Below are positions 1 through 9,742 of a stretch of DNA of 36,830 nt, one piece after another. This DNA is from Roseiflexus sp. (lineage in GTDB: Bacteria > Chloroflexota > Chloroflexia > Chloroflexales > Roseiflexaceae). The stretch is from assembly GCA_017743475.1 (NCBI GenBank), contig JAGHYV010000048.1, positions 1 through 36,830 of the forward strand, written 5' to 3'. The notes beneath the pieces are model-generated. The model ran no database searches, was not told where the DNA came from, and saw nothing but the letters and a program-made list of their open reading frames with translations. Made by a program: the position numbers and the translations under genes. How positions within the stretch are numbered: position 1 is the stretch's first letter; each line of letters begins with the position of its first letter.

Positions 1-2
1 GG

Positions 3-176
3 CGGGGAGAGCGCTGGCTGCTGCACGCCTATTGTTTGCAGCGCCGCGCGGAACGGACGTTTCGGCTGGACCGGGTGCGAGGGTGTGCGCTGGCGCCGCC
101 TGCGGCGCGCTGGGCGCCGGAACCGGCTCTAGCGACGGCAAACCCGGTCAGGTCAGGAGATGCACCGGTGGTGTGA
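3..176 (+). CDS. WYL-domain protein, C-terminal end only
   Basis: An open frame enters from the left edge and stops with TGA at 174-176, giving 57 residues. It reads GERWLLHAYCLQRRAERTFR and then LDRV, the typical end of a WYL domain (an Sm-like ligand-binding fold with a 'RTFRLDRI' type signature). WYL proteins are usually transcription regulators with an N-terminal helix-turn-helix, and some are fused to helicase-associated regions. The DNA-binding part lies outside the window, so regulator versus fusion protein cannot be decided. The residues after LDRV are alanine/proline-rich and look like an unstructured tail. Confidence 0.6.
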   Translation, partial: RGERWLLHAYCLQRRAERTFRLDRVRGCALAPPAARWAPEPALATANPVRSGDAPVV

Positions 177-188
177 CAGACAATGGGT

Positions 189-208
189 GACCGAAATAAA
201 TTTCGGTC
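189..208. repeat. Palindrome GACCGAAAT-aa-ATTTCGGTC
   Basis: Two perfect 9-base arms separated by two bases sit 12 nt after the WYL stop codon. With the flanking TCTACA they are the reverse complement of a shorter palindrome at 7131-7149, so this is a dispersed element, possibly used as a transcript-end hairpin. No T-run follows. The rest of 177-348 shows no gene or other structure I can support. Confidence 0.5.
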
Positions 209-348
209 TACATCTCTCCCAGGAACTCCACTTGTGTGAGAGCGGGGAGCAGGGGAAAGAGGGCGCTCGTGGAACAAACAACGAGGCGTTGTCGTTGGGA
301 TGAGTAGAGATGTCAGCCTTTTCCGATGCTCTGACGATGGAGTGCCCG

Positions 349-1043
349 ATGCGTGCACTATTGTTGATGAGTGCTCTGGTCATTGTTCTCGCCGCATGCG
401 GGACTCCTGCCACAACCATGGGACGGCACGCCTGCGCCGGTAGCCGGTGAAACTGTGGCGATGCCTTCTGCCACACTACTGCCCACGGGTGAACCGGCGA
501 AGCCCCTAGTTGTTGAACCTTCTGCGACGCCTGCCACATTGCCCACAGATGAAGCAGGAACGCCACAAGCTGCGCCTCTGGCAACGTCAGTGATCGAACT
601 TCCTTCCATCGCCAACCCAACGCCTGATGCATTGCCACAATCGGCGCCTGCCGCGCTACAGGCGACAATTGCAGTCACGCCAGTTCCACCGTTGCCAAAC
701 GTTACTACGCTGGCGTTGCAGGGTTCTGCACTGCAACCATCGCTGGTAACGATTGTCGAGCAGGTGGTGTTGCCCAACGAAACGATCTACTGGCGCGCCT
801 GATCGATGACCTGGCGCTACGGAGCAGCAGCGATCTGGTAGCGATCAGTCTGGTCGGCGCTGAGGTGGTGATCTGGAACGACGGATCGCTTAGTTCCCGC
901 AACCAGGAGTTGCCTGCCCACAGGTGCTGGTCGAGGGATACCGTGTGCTGCTGCACGTTGGCGACCGTGACTATGACTACCGTGTCGAAAGGCGCGGATC
1001 ATTCGCACTCTGCGAACAGAGCACCCCGATGTATTCGCCATAG
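349..1043 (+). pseudogene. Degraded lipoprotein gene (C-terminal WxDGSL-type domain)
   Basis: ATG at 349 starts a lipoprotein signal peptide (MRALLLMSALVIVLAACG, lipobox LAAC). This frame closes soon after, and a proline/threonine/alanine-rich linker continues in a second frame (about 425-802). A third frame (about 783-900) reads LLARLIDDLALRSSSDLVAI and VVIWNDGSL. A fourth (about 920-1043) reads PQVLVEGYRVLLHVGDRDYD and ends at TAG 1041-1043. Together these match a small secreted domain common in Chloroflexota, recognised by 'W.DGSLGCP', 'VLV.GYRI.L' and 'Y.Y' motifs. At least three frame changes break it. The order of parts is collinear with an intact protein, so this is decay or sequence error in one gene, not several genes. 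Confidence 0.6.
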
Positions 1044-1047
1044 TGCA

Positions 1048-1077
1048 TTGACATCAGTATGTGATGCGCGGTACAAT
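1048..1077 (+). promoter_or_regulatory. Sigma-70-type promoter for the MmpS-like gene
   Basis: TTGACA at 1048-1053 and TACAAT at 1072-1077 are separated by 18 bp, and the -10 lies 33 bp before the ATG at 1111. It overlaps the end of the broken lipoprotein gene only at its edge. Both hexamers are close to consensus. Confidence 0.6.
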
Positions 1078-1110
1078 CCATGCCAGATAGTATTTGCTGA
1101 AAGATATTGT

Positions 1111-2091
1111 ATGGACCCGCTCCCGCCACGGCGTCCAAGTGTGCAGTTGATCCTGGCGGCGCTGGCGTTTCTCACTGGCGTAACCATTCTGGTTGTGCGC
1201 TTTGGGGGGATTCTTCCGGTCCCGGACGCAGTCTCCACATTGCCGATGACCGCTATGCCTGCTGGGCGCGCAACCGAACCCGCACCAGTCGCAGCGCCGA
1301 CTGACCCCTCGCTTCCATCGCCAACTGTTCCGCCCATGACGCTAACGCCCTCTATGCCAGTAACCGTGTCTCCTGAAACGGTATTCCCTTCCGCAACGTT
1401 GCTGCCATCGCCTGCGATGGCGTCACCAACGGTTGCGCCCATAGCAACGCCGACGTCGTCGCCTGCCACCGTGCTACCGACAATCGTACCGGCGCCATCC
1501 CCATCACCGTCATTGACTCCGCTCCCTGCCACGCTGCCGCCGGAAACCGCTGCTCCGACGCCTGTCGTGTCGCCCATTCCAACATCGACTCCGCTCCCTG
1601 CCACGCTGCCGCCGGAAACCGCTGCTCCGACGTCTGTCGTGTCGCCCATTCCAACCGCAACGGCGACGGCGGATGCGATGCTGGTCGTTCCGACCATGAC
1701 AGCAGGCTCACCGACCGCAGCGCTCACCGCCACGGCGTCTCCCACGCGATCAACAGCGACTGTGACGCTTACGCCTGGTTCAGGCACCCCAACCCCTTCG
1801 CTGACCCCGACGATACGCAGATTGATGCTCTTCGTCGAGGGAACACAACCGCGAGCGGAAATCTCCTACGAAATCGACGATACTGAAGTGCTCGTCGGGA
1901 AAGACATCATCCTACCCTGGCAAACGACAATCGAGGTCGCTTCTGACCGCATTGTGCGTCTGATGGCAGAAGGGGTGGCGGAGATTGGCGATCTCCGGTG
2001 TCAGATCACCGGCGACACCGTACTAAGGCCGATAATCGACTCCAAGTCGGATCTGTACCCGATAGTGAAATGCGAGCTGCGCGGTTCCTGA
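1111..2091 (+). CDS. Membrane-anchored P/T-rich protein with MmpS-like C-terminal domain
   Basis: Start ATG 1111 was chosen because it follows a good promoter and opens with MDPLPPRRPSVQLILAALAF, a short positive N-terminus leading into one membrane helix (about residues 10-30). The frame is open further upstream, but that part overlaps the lipoprotein remnant. Residues about 45-230 are a long proline/threonine/serine linker with an internal 24-residue duplication. The last 90 residues form a folded domain with two cysteines (DLRCQITGD and IVKCELRGS), an aromatic 'ISYEID' strand and 'ILPWQTTI'. This order (isY..., LPW, C.I..D, C at the end) resembles mycobacterial MmpS and related DUF-type beta domains. 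I infer an extracytoplasmic domain held off the membrane by the linker. The function is unknown and the MmpS similarity is by eye only. Confidence 0.65.
   Translation: MDPLPPRRPSVQLILAALAFLTGVTILVVRFGGILPVPDAVSTLPMTAMPAGRATEPAPVAAPTDPSLPSPTVPPMTLTPSMPVTVSPETVFPSATLLPSPAMASPTVAPIATPTSSPATVLPTIVPAPSPSPSLTPLPATLPPETAAPTPVVSPIPTSTPLPATLPPETAAPTSVVSPIPTATATADAMLVVPTMTAGSPTAALTATASPTRSTATVTLTPGSGTPTPSLTPTIRRLMLFVEGTQPRAEISYEIDDTEVLVGKDIILPWQTTIEVASDRIVRLMAEGVAEIGDLRCQITGDTVLRPIIDSKSDLYPIVKCELRGS
1516..1656 (+). repeat. 72-bp in-frame tandem duplication in the P/T linker
   Basis: Two near-identical 72-bp units (1516-1587 and 1588-1656) encode TPLPATLPPETAAPT followed by P/SVVSPIP. The second unit differs by about one base in its coding part, so the duplication is recent or homogenised. 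It lengthens the linker by 24 residues without changing frame. Confidence 0.85.
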
Positions 2092-2149
2092 CCGCGTGGT
2101 GTGCTAGAATGATGCGATAATATGGTACGGTGGCGTATCCGGGTTTCGG

Positions 2150-4735
2150 GTGTTCATCGTGCAGAGCATACGCGACATCATCCAGGCGATTGCACGGCAA
2201 CGTGGGCGGGGTGAGAACACGCCGCTGATCATGCTGCGCGTGCTAGACGAAACGCCCGGCGAGCGCATCAGTCACCTGCCGGTTGACCCGCAACTGGCGC
2301 AGGCATGGCTGGCATACAGCGGTGAGCCGTTCCGTCCCCACCAGGCGCATGCGCTTGCAGCGCTCCGGCGTGGTGAACCGGCGGCGTTGCGTTCGTCCTC
2401 TCCCCATGTTACGGCGACGCTCCAGTTGCTGGCGCGCGCGGCAATAGCCGAGTCGTCGCGTGCTACCGTCATCGTGCTGGCGTTCGACGATGATCATGCA
2501 CATACGCTCTTTGCATCGTTTGAATCTGCCAATCAGTCGTTGCCGTCCCACCTTCGTGCATCAGTTACAACGACAATCGCGCAGCGGATTGATCCATTTG
2601 CGCGTATCGTCATTGTGACCCCGGAGGCGCTGCACGGTCGGGTATTACGGTATCACGCGCGTGCCTGGGGCATGCTCTGGAGTGGGTTGAGTTTGATCCT
2701 GATCCCCGATGTGCATCGGTACACAGGGGTTGCCGGAGCCCATCTGGCCGATCTGCTGATGCGCGCTCATCGGGTTGCTATGGCGCATGGCGCTGCCCCC
2801 GGCTTTCTGGCATCGTTGATCAATGTGCTTGATCCTGCGCCTGCGCTGACCGCGCTGCTTGGCAAATCCTGGCGCGTGATCGATGCTGATGACGGTCCGC
2901 GCACCGCGACGGTGGTCGCGGTCTGGCAGGGAGGTAGCGCCTGGCTGCGCGAAACGACGGAACTGGCGACTATGCTGTGGCGGCAGTCGTATCGGGTCCA
3001 CGTACTGTGCGATGCACTAGGGCGGGCGGCGCTGGCACCTGCCATCGGCGACACTGGCGAAGTAACGGTCGGACCGGAGATCGAACCGGCGCAGGTGCTG
3101 GTCTGCGCCGGTTTTCCGGGTTCGATCAGCGTATTCAGGAGATTGCTGGCAGCGGGACATCAGGCAGTGATCGCCGTGATCGGTGAACGTCCGCAGGAAC
3201 AGGCGCTGGTGCGTCAGGTGTCGATGATGCTGGAAGGTCCGCCGACGATGTGGCCCGTGCCATCTGCAAATGCGTATGTGCTGGCGCAACATGTGGTGTG
3301 TGCCGCCAGTGAACTCCCACTCTCGGCTGCGGATGTTGATGCCTGGGGATGCATCGAGATTGTTCGACGAATGGTGGCCAGCGGACAGCTGGTTGAACTG
3401 CCTGACAATGAACCACTTTGGATCCCGTCTGGTGACGCCGATCCCTATACAGAATTCAGTATCCTGGCAGCCAGCGGTGGTGCCATTACGGCACGTTCTG
3501 AGCAACTGCGCATTCGCGAACGGCTGGATCCAACCCTGTTCGAGCGATGGGCATATGCGGGTGCGGCGCTGCCGCCCGGTGTCGGCGGGTTACGTGTTGT
3601 GCTGCGAGACGAAGAAGAGGGGAGCATTTCACTCCGCCTGGAAACCAGCGGAAGGCGCACCTATCCATTGCGTCGTGCGGATGTGACCGTTCGCGACGTC
3701 TACAATGAGCGCGGATTGTTGCGCGATCAGCGTATGGCATGGGGAAGAGTGGTTGTGCAGGAAACCATTTACGGATGGCGTGAGGCGACCCCTGGCGCAC
3801 CGCCTGCTGACATTGCCCTTAACACGCCCCTTGAAAGCCGTTGGATTGCGCCGGCGTGCTGGTTTGAATTGCCAGTTGCACTTCAGGTGCAAGGACAGTT
3901 TATCGGCTGGTGTCTAACAGCGGCAGTGACATTGCGCGCCCTGGCGTCCTTCACCGATCTTGTGCCGCTGTACGATCATGAACGGCGGCGGTTGTTCTTT
4001 GTCGATGCACAACCCGGCGGAAACGGTCTAGCGCAGTGGCTCTATCAGCACGCTGAGGATGTGTTGCCTGTCGCCTACGATGTTGCGCTAGCATGCCGCT
4101 CTGATCCCCTGCTCGAACCGTTGAGCCGGGTCGATCAGGACTGGTTGCTCGCTCTGCTTGGTCGGGCGCCAGTTGAACCGCTGCGTCGGAGCGAATCAGC
4201 GACTCGCTCCCTAGCTGTTGCGTTGCCTGATCAACGTCGGCAGTCGAACGCGGCATCCAGGTCGCCAGCGGTTGATCCGCAATCCCGGCGAGAGCAACGC
4301 GAGTCGCGCATTCCCGATGCTCAGCAGCCAGTTGATACGTCGCAATCGTCTGCCGGGAAGCATGCGTCGGCACAGCAACCGCCGGATCGCCAGAGCACGC
4401 CGGAGACGCCAGCAACGCTAGCGCAGGCGCAGGCGACGCCCTCCGGAGAAGCATCGGCTGATGTGGCAGCGTTGATCGAACGGCTCCGCCGTCAACGGGA
4501 GCAGCGCGAACGGTCGAAAAACTGCGAGATGCACGCGCAACCGGTGCCTGAGACCGATAGTGAGCCGCGCTTTACGACCGGCGAGCGTATTTTCTGCTTG
4601 CCCTACGGCGATGGTGAAGTGTTGGAAAGTCGTATCGAGGCGGGGCGAGAGGTGCTGGTCGTACGCTTCCCGGAGTATGGCGAACTGACCATTGATCCAG
4701 CGCTCAGCCTGGTGCGCAAACTCAATGCATCGTAG
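2150..4735 (+). CDS. Helicase-like protein (MrfA/DUF1998 type) lacking ATPase motifs
   Basis: The 861-residue product follows the layout of the MrfA (YprA) superfamily-2 helicases, but its catalytic positions are gone. FRPHQAHALAALRRGEP (61-77) matches the Q-motif region. The Walker A loop that should follow (TGTASGKS type) is RSSSPHVTAT. Motif II, normally DEAH, is LIPDVHRYTGVAGAHLADLL (184-203), with the family's 'YxGVxGxH' extension intact. VLVCAGFPGSISVFRRLLA resembles the 'GyPgs...QqaGR' strand of the second RecA domain, but the arginines of motif VI are missing. FVDAQPGGNGLAQWLY matches the DUF1998 'D..GG.G' segment, without the zinc cysteines after it. About 100 polar residues then lead to a C-terminal barrel-like domain (about 810-861, GDGEVLESRIEAGREVLVVRF), similar to the tudor-like tail of UvrD/PcrA. 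GTG 2150 is used; GTG 2159 is an alternative. I infer a non-enzymatic scaffold. Confidence 0.65.
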   Translation: MFIVQSIRDIIQAIARQRGRGENTPLIMLRVLDETPGERISHLPVDPQLAQAWLAYSGEPFRPHQAHALAALRRGEPAALRSSSPHVTATLQLLARAAIAESSRATVIVLAFDDDHAHTLFASFESANQSLPSHLRASVTTTIAQRIDPFARIVIVTPEALHGRVLRYHARAWGMLWSGLSLILIPDVHRYTGVAGAHLADLLMRAHRVAMAHGAAPGFLASLINVLDPAPALTALLGKSWRVIDADDGPRTATVVAVWQGGSAWLRETTELATMLWRQSYRVHVLCDALGRAALAPAIGDTGEVTVGPEIEPAQVLVCAGFPGSISVFRRLLAAGHQAVIAVIGERPQEQALVRQVSMMLEGPPTMWPVPSANAYVLAQHVVCAASELPLSAADVDAWGCIEIVRRMVASGQLVELPDNEPLWIPSGDADPYTEFSILAASGGAITARSEQLRIRERLDPTLFERWAYAGAALPPGVGGLRVVLRDEEEGSISLRLETSGRRTYPLRRADVTVRDVYNERGLLRDQRMAWGRVVVQETIYGWREATPGAPPADIALNTPLESRWIAPACWFELPVALQVQGQFIGWCLTAAVTLRALASFTDLVPLYDHERRRLFFVDAQPGGNGLAQWLYQHAEDVLPVAYDVALACRSDPLLEPLSRVDQDWLLALLGRAPVEPLRRSESATRSLAVALPDQRRQSNAASRSPAVDPQSRREQRESRIPDAQQPVDTSQSSAGKHASAQQPPDRQSTPETPATLAQAQATPSGEASADVAALIERLRRQREQRERSKNCEMHAQPVPETDSEPRFTTGERIFCLPYGDGEVLESRIEAGREVLVVRFPEYGELTIDPALSLVRKLNAS

Positions 4736-4794
4736 GGTCTGGAGATTCCCACAAACTTATAACCACATCGTAACACTCTTCCAAGCGTTAACTC

Positions 4795-4823
4795 TTGCTC
4801 TCACAGGGTTGACATGTTACAAT
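4795..4823 (+). promoter_or_regulatory. Probable promoter of the small-paralogue/zincin operon
   Basis: TTGCTC (4795-4800), a 17-bp spacer and TACAAT (4818-4823) preceded by TG at 4815-4816 form an extended -10 promoter. It lies about 140 nt before the first small gene, in an AT-richer stretch. No terminator was seen after the helicase-like gene. The 5' leader (about 4830-4966) shows no other clear structure. Confidence 0.4.
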
Positions 4824-4966
4824 TTTGAGCGATCCAGTCACATCTCGCGTGCCCTGCACTGTGCCGGATAGCCGAATGATTAGCTTTTCCCGCTTGCAGG
4901 TCAGCGCTAACCAGCGATGTCGTGCGCCTCGGAGGAAGCAGGCGCCTATGAGGAGTGACTACCGCG

Positions 4967-5230
4967 ATGCCGCATGAACGCATCGACTATCCGGAAATGC
5001 TCCGTTCACTTGGGCAATTCATCCAGCAACAGCATCTTAACGAGGTCGCTATCCTTGAGTTTGATCGGGGATGGATTATTTCCGGCGTTACCTATCAGAA
5101 TACAGCGCAGGGGTTCATTCGGGTGGCAGCGGATTTTGTGCTTTCTCACGAAGAACTGCGCCACATTATTCAGCAGATGCGGGATCAGCGCAAACCGGAG
5201 CCGCCGCGCAAAGGGAGGTGGCTGGGATGA
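4967..5230 (+). CDS. Small conserved-looking protein, paralogue 1
   Basis: The product is 87 residues from ATG 4967 (MPHERIDYPEMLRSLGQFIQ). An upstream GTG at 4955 is possible, but AGGAG at 4951-4955 fits the ATG better. The body reads EVAILEFDRGWIISGVTYQN, an alternating strand pattern, and ends in a helix with IIQQMRDQRK. It aligns along its whole length with the next gene: 'DYpemLRslGqFIdeq...V.IlEfd.G.ii.G' and a final 'ShEEL..ii..m'. I do not recognise the family. It has no signal peptide or membrane helix, so it is probably cytoplasmic. It overlaps the next gene by four bases (ATGA). Confidence 0.6.
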   Translation: MPHERIDYPEMLRSLGQFIQQQHLNEVAILEFDRGWIISGVTYQNTAQGFIRVAADFVLSHEELRHIIQQMRDQRKPEPPRKGRWLG

Positions 5231-5490
5231 AATTGTTTCGTGGTCTGGCGAAAACCGATTACCAGGATGTTCTGCGCGCTATCGGGCTGTTTATTGACGA
5301 GCATGGGTACACCGATGTGCGCATTATCGAGATCGAGGACGGGGTAGTATTGCAGGGTCGCGTGCGTGAGCAGCGCGGCATTGGCACTTCCAGCTACGAA
5401 ACATTTCTCATAACCGATGATGATCTGAAAGAAATGGTGCGCACCGCCGCCGAACGGCGCGGTCAAAGGCCGCCAGCATTCACTCAGTGA
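5227..5490 (+). CDS. Small conserved-looking protein, paralogue 2
   Basis: The product is 87 residues, MKLFRGLAKTDYQDVLRAIG onward, with the core VRIIEIEDGVVLQGRV. Its ATG overlaps the stop of paralogue 1 (ATGA at 5227-5230), and GGGAGGT at 5213-5219 is a strong ribosome site. The same strand-strand-helix layout as its neighbour shows a tandem duplication followed by divergence. The overlap points to coupled translation, and I infer the two could form a heterodimer. No known domain was recognised. Confidence 0.65.
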   Translation: MKLFRGLAKTDYQDVLRAIGLFIDEHGYTDVRIIEIEDGVVLQGRVREQRGIGTSSYETFLITDDDLKEMVRTAAERRGQRPPAFTQ

Positions 5491-6674
5491 GAGGAACGAA
5501 CTTGCCTGGACATGCTATCCGAACGTCACGGCGCCTTGGCGCTGCATTACTGCTAGCAGCGGTCGCTGGTGCGGGTGCGCGATACCTGATGATCCGCGCT
5601 GCCAGCAGCATTCCGCGTCCACGAATGATCGACTGGTTGCAGGCGCGCAATGTCGGCGTCGCGGTTTCACAATCATACCTTGCGCCGATGATCGATCGCG
5701 CTGCGCGTCAGGAGCAGTATCGTCAGTTAGTGCAGCGCAGCGAGCCGTTGATTGCCGCGTATATGGGGGTACGCCTGCCGCATCCGGTCGAACGCATCTA
5801 CGTTTTTGACCGGGCGGAATGGATCGAAGCCAACCTCTCCGCCTTTCAGTCGCTTTTTGCGCCGCTTGAAGAGTTGTACGATGAAATCAGCGCGCGCCAG
5901 GGGGTGTTCGGGTTGCTCATAGGGCAACTCAACAGTCAACTTTTGGGGATGCAGATGGGCGCGTTGATCGGGTTCCTGGCGCGGCGTGTGCTCGGTCAGT
6001 ACGATCTCGGTCTGATCTCGCCCGATCCGGATCTGCGCGGCGCGCTCTACTTCGTCGAGCCGAACATCACGCGCATCTGCGCCCAACTCGGTCTCAATGG
6101 CGATGACTTCCGCATGTGGATCGCGCTCCATGAAACAACGCATGTCTTTGAATTCGAAGCATTCCCCTGGGTGCGCGACTATTTTCAGGACCTGCTTCGT
6201 CAGTTTATCAGTCGAGTGAACGACCAGGCGGCAATGCTTAGCGTCGGTATCGTACGATTGATCGAACGGTTGTTGCAGGGTCAACCAATCGACCGGCACT
6301 GGATCGAGTTGATGCTGACGCCTGAGCAACAGGACATCTTTACCCGTATGCAGGCGTTGATGTCAGTGGTGGAAGGGTATTCCAACCACATCATGAACGT
6401 CATCGGTGAGCAGTTGCTCCCCAGTTACTGGCAGATCGAAGCGCGAGTGCGCCAGCGCCAGTTGCGTCGCCCGCTGATCGAGGAAGCGTTCAATCGTTTG
6501 ACCGGTATGGATCTGAAACTGGCACAGTATCAGCAAGGAGAGGCATTCATCCAGGCAGTTGTGGCAGCGCGCGGCGCTCGCTTCGCCAATCGTATCTGGG
6601 AAGGTCCGGAAAATCTGCCGACGATAGAGGAGATCCGTGCACCGCAGCGCTGGATCGCGCGCATGGGCGGATGA
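5487..6674 (+). CDS. Zinc-metallopeptidase-like protein (DUF2342 type)
   Basis: The product is about 395 residues. GTG 5487 overlaps the preceding stop (GTGA). TTG 5502, behind GAGAGGA, is an equally good start and gives MPGHAIRTSRRLGAALLLAA, a single membrane helix. The body holds LNGDDFRMWIALHETTHVFE, an HExxH zinc motif (HETTH) followed by EFEAFPWVRDYF, as in the DUF2342/zincin family. That family is often labelled 'coenzyme F420 biosynthesis-associated', although no biosynthetic reaction is established for it. A second conserved block, MSVVEGYSNHIMNVIGEQLL, contains the VEGxSxHVMD-type segment of the family (E and H), which likely supplies another zinc ligand. Coupling with the two small genes suggests one functional unit. 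The substrate is unknown. Confidence 0.8.
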   Translation: MRGTNLPGHAIRTSRRLGAALLLAAVAGAGARYLMIRAASSIPRPRMIDWLQARNVGVAVSQSYLAPMIDRAARQEQYRQLVQRSEPLIAAYMGVRLPHPVERIYVFDRAEWIEANLSAFQSLFAPLEELYDEISARQGVFGLLIGQLNSQLLGMQMGALIGFLARRVLGQYDLGLISPDPDLRGALYFVEPNITRICAQLGLNGDDFRMWIALHETTHVFEFEAFPWVRDYFQDLLRQFISRVNDQAAMLSVGIVRLIERLLQGQPIDRHWIELMLTPEQQDIFTRMQALMSVVEGYSNHIMNVIGEQLLPSYWQIEARVRQRQLRRPLIEEAFNRLTGMDLKLAQYQQGEAFIQAVVAARGARFANRIWEGPENLPTIEEIRAPQRWIARMGG

Positions 6675-7050
6675 CGTGGTCGACCGGCACTATGTGGTCG
6701 TCACCCGGCGGCTTTGATCACTACACTGTGCCCTTCGGCAGGCGGCAGGGTGCGTTGCGTACATGCGAAATGCAGCAACGCAACAGTGTCGGGCAATTCA
6801 GATAGCCTGAACAGGCGTTCAGATACAACCTCGCTGCCAGATGACGGAATACACTGCCGTGCGCAATGATAGTTGCCGCAAGCTCGATCTGTCATCTGTA
6901 TCAGAGATGTTCATCCACACGCGATCCTTTTCGCCATGAGGCAGGAACGCTTGTCCCGGTTCACCAAACCTGCCTGCATCGCACAGGTCTGACCAATTTA
7001 CTTTCTTCATCTACTTTTGTGCTTCATCCGGGATGGCCCTGATGAGTCCT
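6675..7050. other. Intergenic stretch with a possible broken small gene (-)
   Basis: No intact gene is supported. On the minus strand, ATG 7010 opens MKKVNWSDLCDAGRFGEPGQ and then FLPHGEKDRVWMNISDT. One base out of frame, an open stretch runs to 6701 with ACGNYHCARQCIPSSGSEVV and SERLFRLSELPD. Read together this would be a protein of about 100 residues with one frameshift near 6900. There is no ribosome site and no family match I recognise, so it may be chance. Confidence 0.2.
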
Positions 7051-7230
7051 GAGAATTATAGCAGTTCTCAGACGCATTGACCCCTGTCTGGGCCTCTCGT
7101 GTTGCGCCAGACGCCCGCTTCTAGCAAAGTGTAGACCGAAATTCGGTCATCGCGCGTGGATGCGCCATTCCCAGGAGTGTTCAACCTTGTCCGATGGGTT
7201 CAACCTTTGTGAGAACTGCTATAAATGCTC
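7051..7230. mobile_element. MITE-like element with about 20-bp terminal inverted repeats
   Basis: The ends GAGAATTATAGCAGTTCTCA (7051-7070) and, reverse complemented, GAGCATTTATAGCAGTTCTC (7211-7230, with an A at 7210 completing it) match except for one indel and one neighbouring change. Fourteen bases, TATAGCAGTTCTCA, are perfect on both sides. The 180-bp interior has no coding frame worth noting and includes a palindrome (7134-7148). The same 14 bases recur alone at 27018-27031. Size, inverted ends and recurrence fit a non-autonomous miniature element. I could not identify a convincing target-site duplication. Confidence 0.5.
7134..7148. repeat. Palindrome GACCGAA-a-TTCGGTC
   Basis: This is the second copy of the element at 189-208, in opposite orientation, with the shared outer context TGTAGACCGAAAT...TCGGTCA. 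The loop is shorter here. It lies inside the MITE-like element. Confidence 0.5.
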
Positions 7231-7287
7231 AATCTTTACTATTTCGGTTATCGTGAAACGCGCCATTCCCAGGAGTGTTCAACCTTG
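7162..7287 (+). repeat. 28-bp direct repeat, two copies 98 bp apart
   Basis: Copies at 7162-7189 and 7260-7287 are identical and contain CCATTCCCAGGAGTGTTCAA. One copy is inside the MITE-like element and one just outside, so the element may have inserted into or duplicated neighbouring sequence. The remaining stretch 7288-7500 shows no gene I can support. Confidence 0.75.
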
Positions 7288-7500
7288 CCAGTCTAGAGTG
7301 GCCCCAAATCCACAGCGGGATCTCTGGAGCATGACCGCCTTTCGTCAGCGTGCCGAAGAAAGCGATTCTTCACCGCACTCTGAAGTCGCTGGTGCAGTGA
7401 AACGTTTGCCTGGTCAGGCGACAAGAGAGAGCGATGCCAGCCCTGGTAGGCTGGCATTCACCATTCCGTGCAGAGTGTGAGAGCGTGCCTGACTATGCGA

Positions 7501-7538
7501 ACGAAGCAACCTTCCTGTCTGGCAGAAGATTGCTTCGT
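7501..7538 (-). terminator. Strong hairpin after the symporter operon
   Basis: ACGAAGCAA (7501-7509) and TTGCTTCGT (7530-7538) are perfect 9-base arms, with inner CTTC/GAAG pairing. It lies 36 nt beyond the symporter stop. There is no T-run, so it may be a transcript-end hairpin or a repeat of the widespread 'GAAGCAATC' type rather than a true Rho-independent terminator. Confidence 0.4.
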
Positions 7539-7573
7539 CGCAATGACCAGGCAACCCGATCTGGGGTGGGCGC

Positions 7574-9742
7574 TTAGTGCGCACCAGCTGCTTGCTTCCC
7601 GCCAGCGATGCTGGTCATCAATTCATCGTCGAGTTCTGGGCTGCGCAGGTGGTCGACCAGGTCCTGGATTTCCTGCGACGGCGCTGCCGTCAGTTTACTC
7701 ACAATGTAGCAGAGCAGGAAGTTAACCGGCATACCGAAGATGCCAGCTGCCAGGTGCGTGATGCCCAGCACGTTGAACGACGGATCAACATAGTTGCTGT
7801 ACATGTAGAAGAGCGTTACCGACAGACCACCGATCATGCCAGCGATCGCTCCGGGACCGTTGCAGCGTTTCCAGAAGATGCCAAGCAGGATAACCGGGAA
7901 GAACGACGATGCCGCCATCGAGAACGCCCACGCCACCATCTGTGCAATCAGCGCCAGGCGTGGCAGCGCAAGCAGTGCCGCAATCACAGCTGCCACCACG
8001 AGCATCGTCTTGCCGAGCCAGATACGGGTGTTCATGCTGGCTTTCGGATTGATGATGCGGTAGTAGAAATCGTGCGCAATGGCGGACGAGATGACCACCA
8101 GCAGACCATCGGCAGTAGAGAGCGCTGCCGCCATACCACCGGCAGCGATCAGCGCGGCGACCGTGTACGGCAGGCCAGCGATTTCCGGCGTCGCCAGCAC
8201 GATCGTATCCGGGTCGATGTTCAGTTCGCTGAACTGCAGGATGCCGTCAACGCTCGTCTTGGTGATCACCGTACCTGACAGTTCGCCGAAGGTGCCGACC
8301 TTCTTGCCATCGACTTCAGTTTCGCTGAAGGTCGCGCCAGCCAGGTCGATCTTGCCATTGCCGTTGGCATCGTTGATCACCAGCGCGCCGCTCTTCACCT
8401 GCGGTGCAGCCCAGGCTGGCAGTTTATCAATGTCGCGCCCATCAAGGGTAGTGTAGTCACGCTGCGTGATCAGACCCAGGCGGCTCCAGTTCTGCGTCCA
8501 CTCCGGCAATGAACTGATCTCCTTGCCGACCACGTTTTGCAGGATTTCCCAGCGCGCGAATGCAGCATATGCAGGCGCTGTGAAGTAGAGCAGGAAGATG
8601 AAGAACAGCGCCCAACCGACGCTCAGGCGGCTTTCGCGCACACTCGGCACGGTGTAGAAGCGGATGAGGATGTGCGGCAGACCGGCAGTGCCGACCATCA
8701 GACAGAAGGTGAGCGCCAGGAAGTTCCACGGCGTCCCGCGCCAGTCGGTCTGGATTTCCTCAGCCGGTTTGCTGATGTCGGGGATCGACTGCGCCTTCGG
8801 CGGCGTAATGTTGACGCCGAAGTAGGTATTGATCTGATTGATCGCCGTCACAGCGGCTGCGTTGCTCAGCCCTTCGTTATATGCGGGCACATATCCGCCC
8901 TGAATAACGCGCCCGCTGCCATCGCGCGCCTTTGATTCCGTGGCGATCTTGAGCTCAGTCTCCAGGCGGGTGATATTCTGCAACGCCTGACCATAGCTCA
9001 ACTGCGGGATCGGGAAGCCGGTCAGTTTGAGCGAAAGGAAGGTCACCGGGATCATATAGGCGATGATCAGAATGATATACTGCGCCACCTGCGTCCAGGT
9101 CACCGCCTTCATACCGCCCAGGAATGAACAGACCAGCACGCCCGACAGACCAATGACGACGCCCCATTCATACGGCACGCCGATAAAGCGCGACATAATA
9201 ATGCCAACACCGACCACCTGCGCCGTTACATACGTCAGGCTGACGATGATAGCGCAGATTGCCGCCACCAGGCGGGGCCAGCGCCCGCCATAGCGCGTAC
9301 CGACGAAGTCGGGAATGGTGTACTGACCGAACTTGCGAATGTAGGGTGCGAACAGGAGCGCCAGCAGCACATAGCCGCCCGTCCATCCCATGATGTACGC
9401 CAGCCCGTCATATCCCAGGGCATAGAGCGTACCGGCCATCGAGATGAACGACGCCGCGCTCATCCAGTCGGCGCCGGTCGCCATGCCGTTGAAGACTGCT
9501 GGCACATTCCGTCCAGCGACATAGTACTCGTCGAGGATCTTGGTACGGCTCATGATGCCGATGAAGGCGTACAACCCCATCGTCAACATCAGGAACGTCC
9601 ACCCGATCCAGGCTTTAGGCATGCCTGCGCCGAGTTCCAGCGCACCCATGATCAGGGAGAAAATGATCAGGCCAACGGTGAACATGCCATAGTACTGCGC
9701 CAGACGGTTGTTGCGCAGTTTGATTGCTTCATTGACTGCCAT
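7574..9742 (-). CDS. Sodium:solute symporter large subunit (VC_2705-like)
   Basis: The product has 722 residues and multiple membrane helices of the SSSF fold: a DEYYVAGRNVPAVFNGMATG segment, ADWMSAASFISMAGTLYALG (sodium-site region), and a LSTADGLLVVISSAIAHDFY helix. These are typical of ActP-like carriers in the VC_2705 subgroup. That subgroup pairs with a small DUF4212 partner, which is encoded just upstream. It imports an organic solute, perhaps a short-chain carboxylate such as acetate, driven by sodium. A soluble insert (about 400-510) holds NDANGNGKIDL (457-467), a calcium-loop-like DxNxNGxID sequence. RBS GGAGGGAG stands 7 nt before the ATG. It is co-transcribed with the small subunit (20-nt gap). 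The substrate cannot be read from sequence. Confidence 0.88.
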   Translation of the reverse strand: MAVNEAIKLRNNRLAQYYGMFTVGLIIFSLIMGALELGAGMPKAWIGWTFLMLTMGLYAFIGIMSRTKILDEYYVAGRNVPAVFNGMATGADWMSAASFISMAGTLYALGYDGLAYIMGWTGGYVLLALLFAPYIRKFGQYTIPDFVGTRYGGRWPRLVAAICAIIVSLTYVTAQVVGVGIIMSRFIGVPYEWGVVIGLSGVLVCSFLGGMKAVTWTQVAQYIILIIAYMIPVTFLSLKLTGFPIPQLSYGQALQNITRLETELKIATESKARDGSGRVIQGGYVPAYNEGLSNAAAVTAINQINTYFGVNITPPKAQSIPDISKPAEEIQTDWRGTPWNFLALTFCLMVGTAGLPHILIRFYTVPSVRESRLSVGWALFFIFLLYFTAPAYAAFARWEILQNVVGKEISSLPEWTQNWSRLGLITQRDYTTLDGRDIDKLPAWAAPQVKSGALVINDANGNGKIDLAGATFSETEVDGKKVGTFGELSGTVITKTSVDGILQFSELNIDPDTIVLATPEIAGLPYTVAALIAAGGMAAALSTADGLLVVISSAIAHDFYYRIINPKASMNTRIWLGKTMLVVAAVIAALLALPRLALIAQMVAWAFSMAASSFFPVILLGIFWKRCNGPGAIAGMIGGLSVTLFYMYSNYVDPSFNVLGITHLAAGIFGMPVNFLLCYIVSKLTAAPSQEIQDLVDHLRSPELDDELMTSIAGGKQAAGAH

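Follow-up and report, generated by a model that had tools for sequence, protein, structure and literature searches.

A conserved motor-less descendant of the MrfA helicases, with a predicted UvrD-type Tudor tail, found in one order of Chloroflexota

One large gene of Roseiflexus sp. (Chloroflexales) resembles a repair helicase whose ATPase sites are replaced, and this raises the question of where such a protein comes from, whether it is still maintained by selection and what it could do as something other than a motor. The gene lies in a stretch of 36,830 nucleotides, called here the window, which belongs to a draft genome of 4.97 Mb (G000). The 2.6-kb frame that the sequence-only reading had described as intact is indeed open from 2150 to 4735 and encodes 861 aa; considering that orthologue N-termini align at residue 4 of this ORF, corresponding to the GTG at 2159, the true length is probably 858 aa. 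The gene and its parts are as follows.

2150..4735, + strand: pseudohelicase gene, intact ORF of 861 aa (858 aa if the family start, GTG at 2159, is used)
2267..2935, + strand: RecA1-like domain, residues 40-262, from alignment to 6znp_A and active paralogues, boundaries approximate
2390..2416, + strand: lost Walker A site, RSSSPHVTA, residues 81-89, from the 48-orthologue alignment
2705..2716, + strand: lost motif II (DEAH) site, PDVH, residues 186-189, first Asp in 0/48
2717..2773, + strand: element retained after motif II, RYTGVAGAHLADLLMRAHR, with His198, Arg205 and Arg208, each in 48/48
2936..3184, + strand: shortened RecA2-like stretch, residues 263-345, motifs V and VI lost, from length comparison with paralogues
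3266..3376, + strand: winged-helix remnant, residues 373-409, from a sub-cut-off Pfam match and invariant residues
3977..4096, + strand: MZB-like remnant, residues 610-649, zinc cysteines gone, from a sub-cut-off Pfam match and alignment
4166..4459, + strand: variable linker, residues 673-770, rich in Ala/Ser/Pro/Gln/Arg and predicted unstructured, from composition and model
4460..4534, + strand: conserved charged helix preceding the barrel, residues 771-795, from orthologue comparison and the tail model
4571..4723, + strand: UvrD/PcrA-type Tudor barrel, residues 808-858, from profile and predicted fold

The linker ranges from 25 to 802 aa among 40 orthologues. Upstream of the gene, a Pro/Thr/Ser-rich ORF (865-2091) contains a 72-nt tandem duplication at 1511-1654, 97% identical.

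We looked for the origin of the core. A phmmer search with the single window protein found 6znp_A (Bacillus YprA/MrfA) at E 1.6e-22, and a profile of 29 diverse cores matched the MrfA PDB chain at E 7.5e-46 over positions 38-642, MrfA being its sole match at E <= 0.01 among PDB sequences. Moreover, hhalign joined the 29 dead cores to 10 live paralogues with a probability of 100 over 598 columns. The window protein falls slightly short of the Pfam cut-offs for WHD_HRQ1 (24.7 bits, cut-off 27) and MZB (23.8 bits, cut-off 24.2); despite this, the profile and hhalign alignments span RecA1, RecA2, winged helix and MZB, therefore every region of the MrfA core is represented. Judged from these alignments, the descent of the gene from the YprA/MrfA helicase family is shown, as had been proposed in calling it an MrfA/DUF1998-type homologue. 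The RecA domains are likewise read from the profile alignment, as the full-length AlphaFold2 model, made from seven sequences, is too poor for superposition (pLDDT 46.5); Foldseek on this poor model ranked four MrfA chains first, with TM-scores of just 0.13-0.22. TIGR03817, the helicase/secretion neighbourhood family, gave 117.9 bits, under its curated cut-off of 874.1. Among PADLOC models, including the DISARM, Druantia and Dpd defence helicases, no family matched the window protein at E 0.001, and a defence-system helicase was rejected on this basis.

The loss of the motor was followed in an alignment of 48 orthologues, from four families of the order, and 13 live paralogues. In the window protein, Walker A has changed from TATASGKT to RSSSPHVTA, DEAH to PDVH and SAT to LIN, and motif VI is reduced from QQAGRAGR to RRLLAAG. 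The same losses run throughout the 48 orthologues, and the motifs are intact in 13/13 paralogues. The Walker A lysine occurs in 0/48 orthologues (one of them, G029, is uninformative there, its N-terminus being cut off by the contig end) and GK[ST] in 13/13 paralogues. The first Asp of DEAH is likewise found in none of the orthologues, all of which also carry a deletion of the motif VI QQ. Each Arg column of motif VI holds Arg in 13/48 orthologues, and both do in 3/48 (G010, G008, G029), which we take as alignment chance because the motif is deleted and the columns shifted. This fits the replacement of Walker A, DEAH and the motif VI arginines first noticed in the single protein, and two further losses were found. 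The stretch from motif III to motif VI measures 116-120 aa in all 48 orthologues versus 171-208 aa in the 13 paralogues, leaving RecA2 short by roughly 50-90 residues. Within the 60 residues past the PGG motif, 0-2 cysteines are present in the orthologues (46/48, those in which the script located PGG; 1 in the window protein) versus 4-5 in 13/13 live paralogues. As SF2 motifs I, II, III, V and VI are not intact, we class the protein as a pseudohelicase derived from the family and not as a member helicase; going by motif loss, its ATPase is predicted to be dead.

Other parts of the core are retained. The Q-motif Gln is present in the window protein and in 36/48 orthologues, and the G..H element past motif II, part of the YxGVxGxH extension reported as kept, has its Gly in 44/48 and its His in 48/48. 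His198, Arg205 and Arg208 after motif II, as well as Asn374, Ala386, Glu388 and Pro390 of the winged helix, are identical in all 48, and 18 core columns are invariant across the 29 diverse members. The dead cores are acidic, with a median net charge of -11 (range -25 to 4, 29 cores) compared with a median of -4 for the first 770 aa of the 13 live paralogues; therefore, non-specific DNA binding is not favoured.

Selection was estimated by NG86 on seven orthologue pairs. For the whole gene dN/dS was 0.12-0.20, with 0.07-0.14 for core residues 346-672, 0.08-0.18 for the tail, 0.07-0.27 for the RecA2 remnant and 0.30-0.54 for the linker, while RecA1 gave 0.09-0.16 in all pairs but the most distant (G000-G009), where it reached 0.32, the ratios of the two widest pairs being rough because their synonymous distances exceed 1. 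YN00 estimates were mostly somewhat above these, up to 1.5 for the linker. Two pairs of the live paralogue gave 0.087 and 0.115. The pseudohelicase is under purifying selection comparable to that on the active paralogue, and neither outcome that the sequence-only reading had named as refuting it, relaxed selection or a predicted structure devoid of RecA-like domains, was seen, the latter within the limits of the poor full-length model.

The gene was matched in 58/60 relatives, including 47/47 of those of good quality, a few matches being fragments. A class draw of 150 genomes, the window's own included, comprised 74 of the order and 76 outside it. In this one draw, the tail profile matched 65/74 order genomes strongly (E at most 2.8e-13), and 8 of the remaining 9 have the core, in some cases as fragments, so that core or tail is present in 73/74; neither was found in G046, which is 76% complete. 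Outside the order, 40/76 class genomes matched the tail profile only weakly (E 3.4e-8 to about 9e-4), mostly in ORFs of UvrD-like size, and the core profile, run on 55/76, reached 122.7 bits at best, compared with 583-944 bits in order members with a near-complete core. Among 201 genomes of the phylum, 19 order members scored 656-950 bits and every other one <= 147. We also searched for dead orthologues outside the order: 18/21 ORFs carry all four live motifs by pattern, and the other three were rejected, L133 and L134 as short or partial and the G090 protein as a separate degenerate one. Likewise rejected were four phylum matches above 115 bits, three of them complete and live and the fourth truncated by a contig end with live motifs V and VI. 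A Walker A pattern overlooked one live protein (G297), in which the alignment shows the motif present.

In a quick tree of 63 rows, 32 dead proteins fall on one side of a branch with SH-aLRT 100 and the four families separate; the dead-protein branch is too long for the tree to single out a sister among live helicases. Most simply, the motor and the zinc cysteines would have been lost once, before the families of the order split, and within the order the gene has since been inherited nearly always as a single copy.

Some individual loci deserve a record. In another family of the class, the G090 protein (L143:1234-4959, minus strand, G090:C426) is a 1242-aa frame, stop to stop, and a second, separate degenerate YprA relative: it has GPGSGRH for Walker A, lacks DEAH, SAT and motif VI, and retains the zinc cysteines. 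In G139, a genome with no tail match, a full-core orthologue (L145:1519-3774, plus strand, G139:C667) has a frame that ends 35 aa later though the contig continues. In G055, 25 kb separate the core from the tail of one gene, and the two are in reversed order (C1, 171607-173277 and 198066-198611), probably a scaffolding fault because the core stretch contains 100 N.

We then considered the C-terminus. A profile of 42 tails found 16 matches at E <= 10 among PDB sequences, and the 11 of lowest E are UvrD/PcrA (7) and CarD (4), at weak values of 0.006-0.54. Pfam PcrA_UvrD_tudor (PF21196) matches 9/42 tails (best 3.7e-6) and CarD_TRCF_RID 6/42 (best 0.008); the window tail itself has neither Pfam match. 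In the window's genome, the sole other match of the tail profile is the tail of UvrD, at E 0.04. The tail model has a pLDDT of 80.9, about 95 in the barrel, and Foldseek on it gave nothing at E 0.001 or below; its ranks 1-7 are all UvrD/PcrA Tudor domains (E 1.8e-3 to 1.1e-2), followed by a chromo domain, CdnL, Mfd and CarD among others. Fold prediction together with the profile shows the C-terminus as a predicted five-stranded Tudor barrel of UvrD/PcrA type, in agreement with the resemblance to the UvrD/PcrA tail proposed at first sight. Within one genus, G032 and G035 have the tail as a separate ORF directly downstream of the core (L062:5201-5899, L063:9207-10772); it is fused to the core in two other members of that genus, and the split may be real or a frameshift.

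These results confirm the initial observation: one order conserves, under selection, an MrfA descendant that has lost its motor and ends in a predicted Tudor barrel of UvrD type. What the protein does can be approached from the tail. The Tudor domain of PcrA binds RNA polymerase, as tested by mutation of H681, W684, K712 and L714 (PMC5397179), and it binds UvrB, on which the partner motif that PcrA recognises is also present (PMC8318588). In the pseudohelicase tails, the H681 equivalent is Cys816 (Cys in 42/42), that of W684 is Tyr819 (Tyr, Phe, Trp or His in 42/42), that of K712 is Leu846 (Lys in 0/42) and that of L714 is Ile848 (Ile or Val in 42/42); Pro818 is found in 41/42. Thus, the aromatic and hydrophobic positions of the four are kept while His and Lys are lost, so the full PcrA set is absent. 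Fold and place of the tail suggest docking on RNA polymerase or UvrB and, since the H681 and K712 equivalents are replaced, the contacts must differ from those of PcrA.

We propose, with a probability of roughly 0.45, that the protein is an ATP-independent scaffold derived from MrfA and tethered to RNA polymerase or UvrB by its Tudor tail. The barrel would dock the protein on RNA polymerase (beta subunit) or UvrB, like those of UvrD, PcrA, Mfd and CarD, and the MrfA-shaped core would act as an ATP-independent platform offering a kept surface, namely the RecA1 helix with His198, Arg205 and Arg208 and the winged helix, to DNA or a repair partner. Its role would then be that of a recruitment factor linked to transcription or repair, not that of a motor. 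A bolder version, which we regard as doubtful, is that an ATP-independent transcription-repair coupling factor peculiar to the order arose from an MrfA that lost its motor once in the common ancestor; its core would have become a rigid docking platform, flexibly leashed to a UvrD-type Tudor hook that grips RNA polymerase or UvrB, and the protein, if this is true, fills a role played elsewhere by motor proteins.

The replaced H681 and K712 equivalents, together with the Cys816 and Pro818 shared by nearly all tails, suggest another binding surface, and this bears on a different possibility, that the core is a structural adaptor whose Tudor-like barrel is recruited to a partner outside transcription and repair. 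No neighbour gene is conserved across the families, which also speaks for such an adaptor and led us to reject an operon or neighbour partner (a Zincin_2 peptidase and two small ORFs are among the neighbours conserved within the genus; Rfam over window positions 1-8000 gave no match). However, among bacterial relatives of the barrel, UvrD, PcrA, CarD and Mfd are the nearest whose partners are known, and these partners are RNA polymerase or UvrB; we consider the adaptor unlikely. That the barrel and charged helix act and the core persists as a remnant for folding or stability would agree with the separate downstream tail ORF of G032 and G035, but selection on the core is as strong as on the tail and its 18 invariant columns argue against a remnant, leaving very little probability for this explanation.

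An active paralogue beside the dead gene, as suggested from the sequence alone, does exist in the window's genome (intact MrfA at G000:C36). A live MrfA (match above 600 bits) is found in 16/60 relatives, which would accord with the dead copy being a regulatory or structural subunit of active MrfA, inhibiting or positioning it. As a general rule the suggestion is not supported: 44/60 relatives show no live MrfA, and the one-contig genomes G045, G047 and G054 keep the dead gene although live MrfA was not found in them. Therefore, the relation is not one of obligate partner or subunit. Other YprA-like helicases of about 1700 aa could be partners in some genomes, and all in all the subunit role appears improbable. 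The window's genome encodes one of 1714 aa with DEAD and MZB (L081:2965-8109, minus strand, G000:C74; best PADLOC match DruE3, E 1.1e-99), adjoining apparent sugar phosphomutase and heme farnesyltransferase genes, and many genomes of the order have matching ORFs of about this size. Finally, the vanished catalytic motifs might indicate a decaying pseudogene or an assembly artefact, but this is refuted, at a negligible residual probability, by the core frame being open in the aligned orthologues, by the low dN/dS and by recurrence in one-contig genomes and independent MAGs.

Retention in essentially the whole order, often without a live MrfA, implies that what is left of a repair helicase is put to a selected use that needs no ATP. 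Whether helicase cores can act as scaffolds linked to transcription or repair becomes testable, and a genome that encodes both a live and a dead copy offers a before/after pair for the function of a helicase surface apart from its motor. A literature search, with subscription papers mostly outside its scope, found neither a published MrfA/YprA-family pseudohelicase nor one that combines a dead SF2 core and a Tudor tail of UvrD type, and nothing linking Chloroflexota or Chloroflexus to the pseudohelicase topic. The available passages of a YprA-family survey (PMC12458937) mention inactivated nucleases and an inactivated GTPase and, in those passages, no inactivated helicase core; the word 'tudor' is absent from the survey.

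Known pseudohelicases include PriA of Deinococcus and Utp25. Precedents are described in PMC4504706 and PMC9539457, the former reporting that PriA of Deinococcus radiodurans binds DNA without ATPase. There too the helicase motifs were lost in a lineage and the gene was kept, but PriA belongs to another helicase family and is the species' own PriA, whereas the dead MrfA copy exists as a gene of its own; the abstract of PMC4504706 makes no mention of a Tudor tail. With MrfA/YprA (DUF1998/MZB SF2 helicase; PDB 6znp, 6znq, 6zns) the protein shares a colinear RecA1, RecA2, winged helix, OB-like and MZB order, but it lacks Walker A, DEAH, SAT, QxxGRxGR and the zinc cysteines, has the shorter RecA2 stretch and carries the extra linker and barrel. 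With the Tudor domains of UvrD/PcrA (PF21196; 5dma, 7egs, 9dqs) it shares the predicted fold (5dma, probability 1.00, TMt 0.85) and a flexible linker; there the Tudor sits on an SF1 helicase, here on an SF2 pseudohelicase with the His and Lys contacts replaced. The RNA polymerase interaction domains of CarD/CdnL and Mfd are among the next-best folds and sequence matches of the barrel. Mfd likewise couples a degenerate UvrB-like module to an RNA polymerase interaction domain, whereas in the present protein the barrel terminates a single dead helicase core, in a chain without a translocase.
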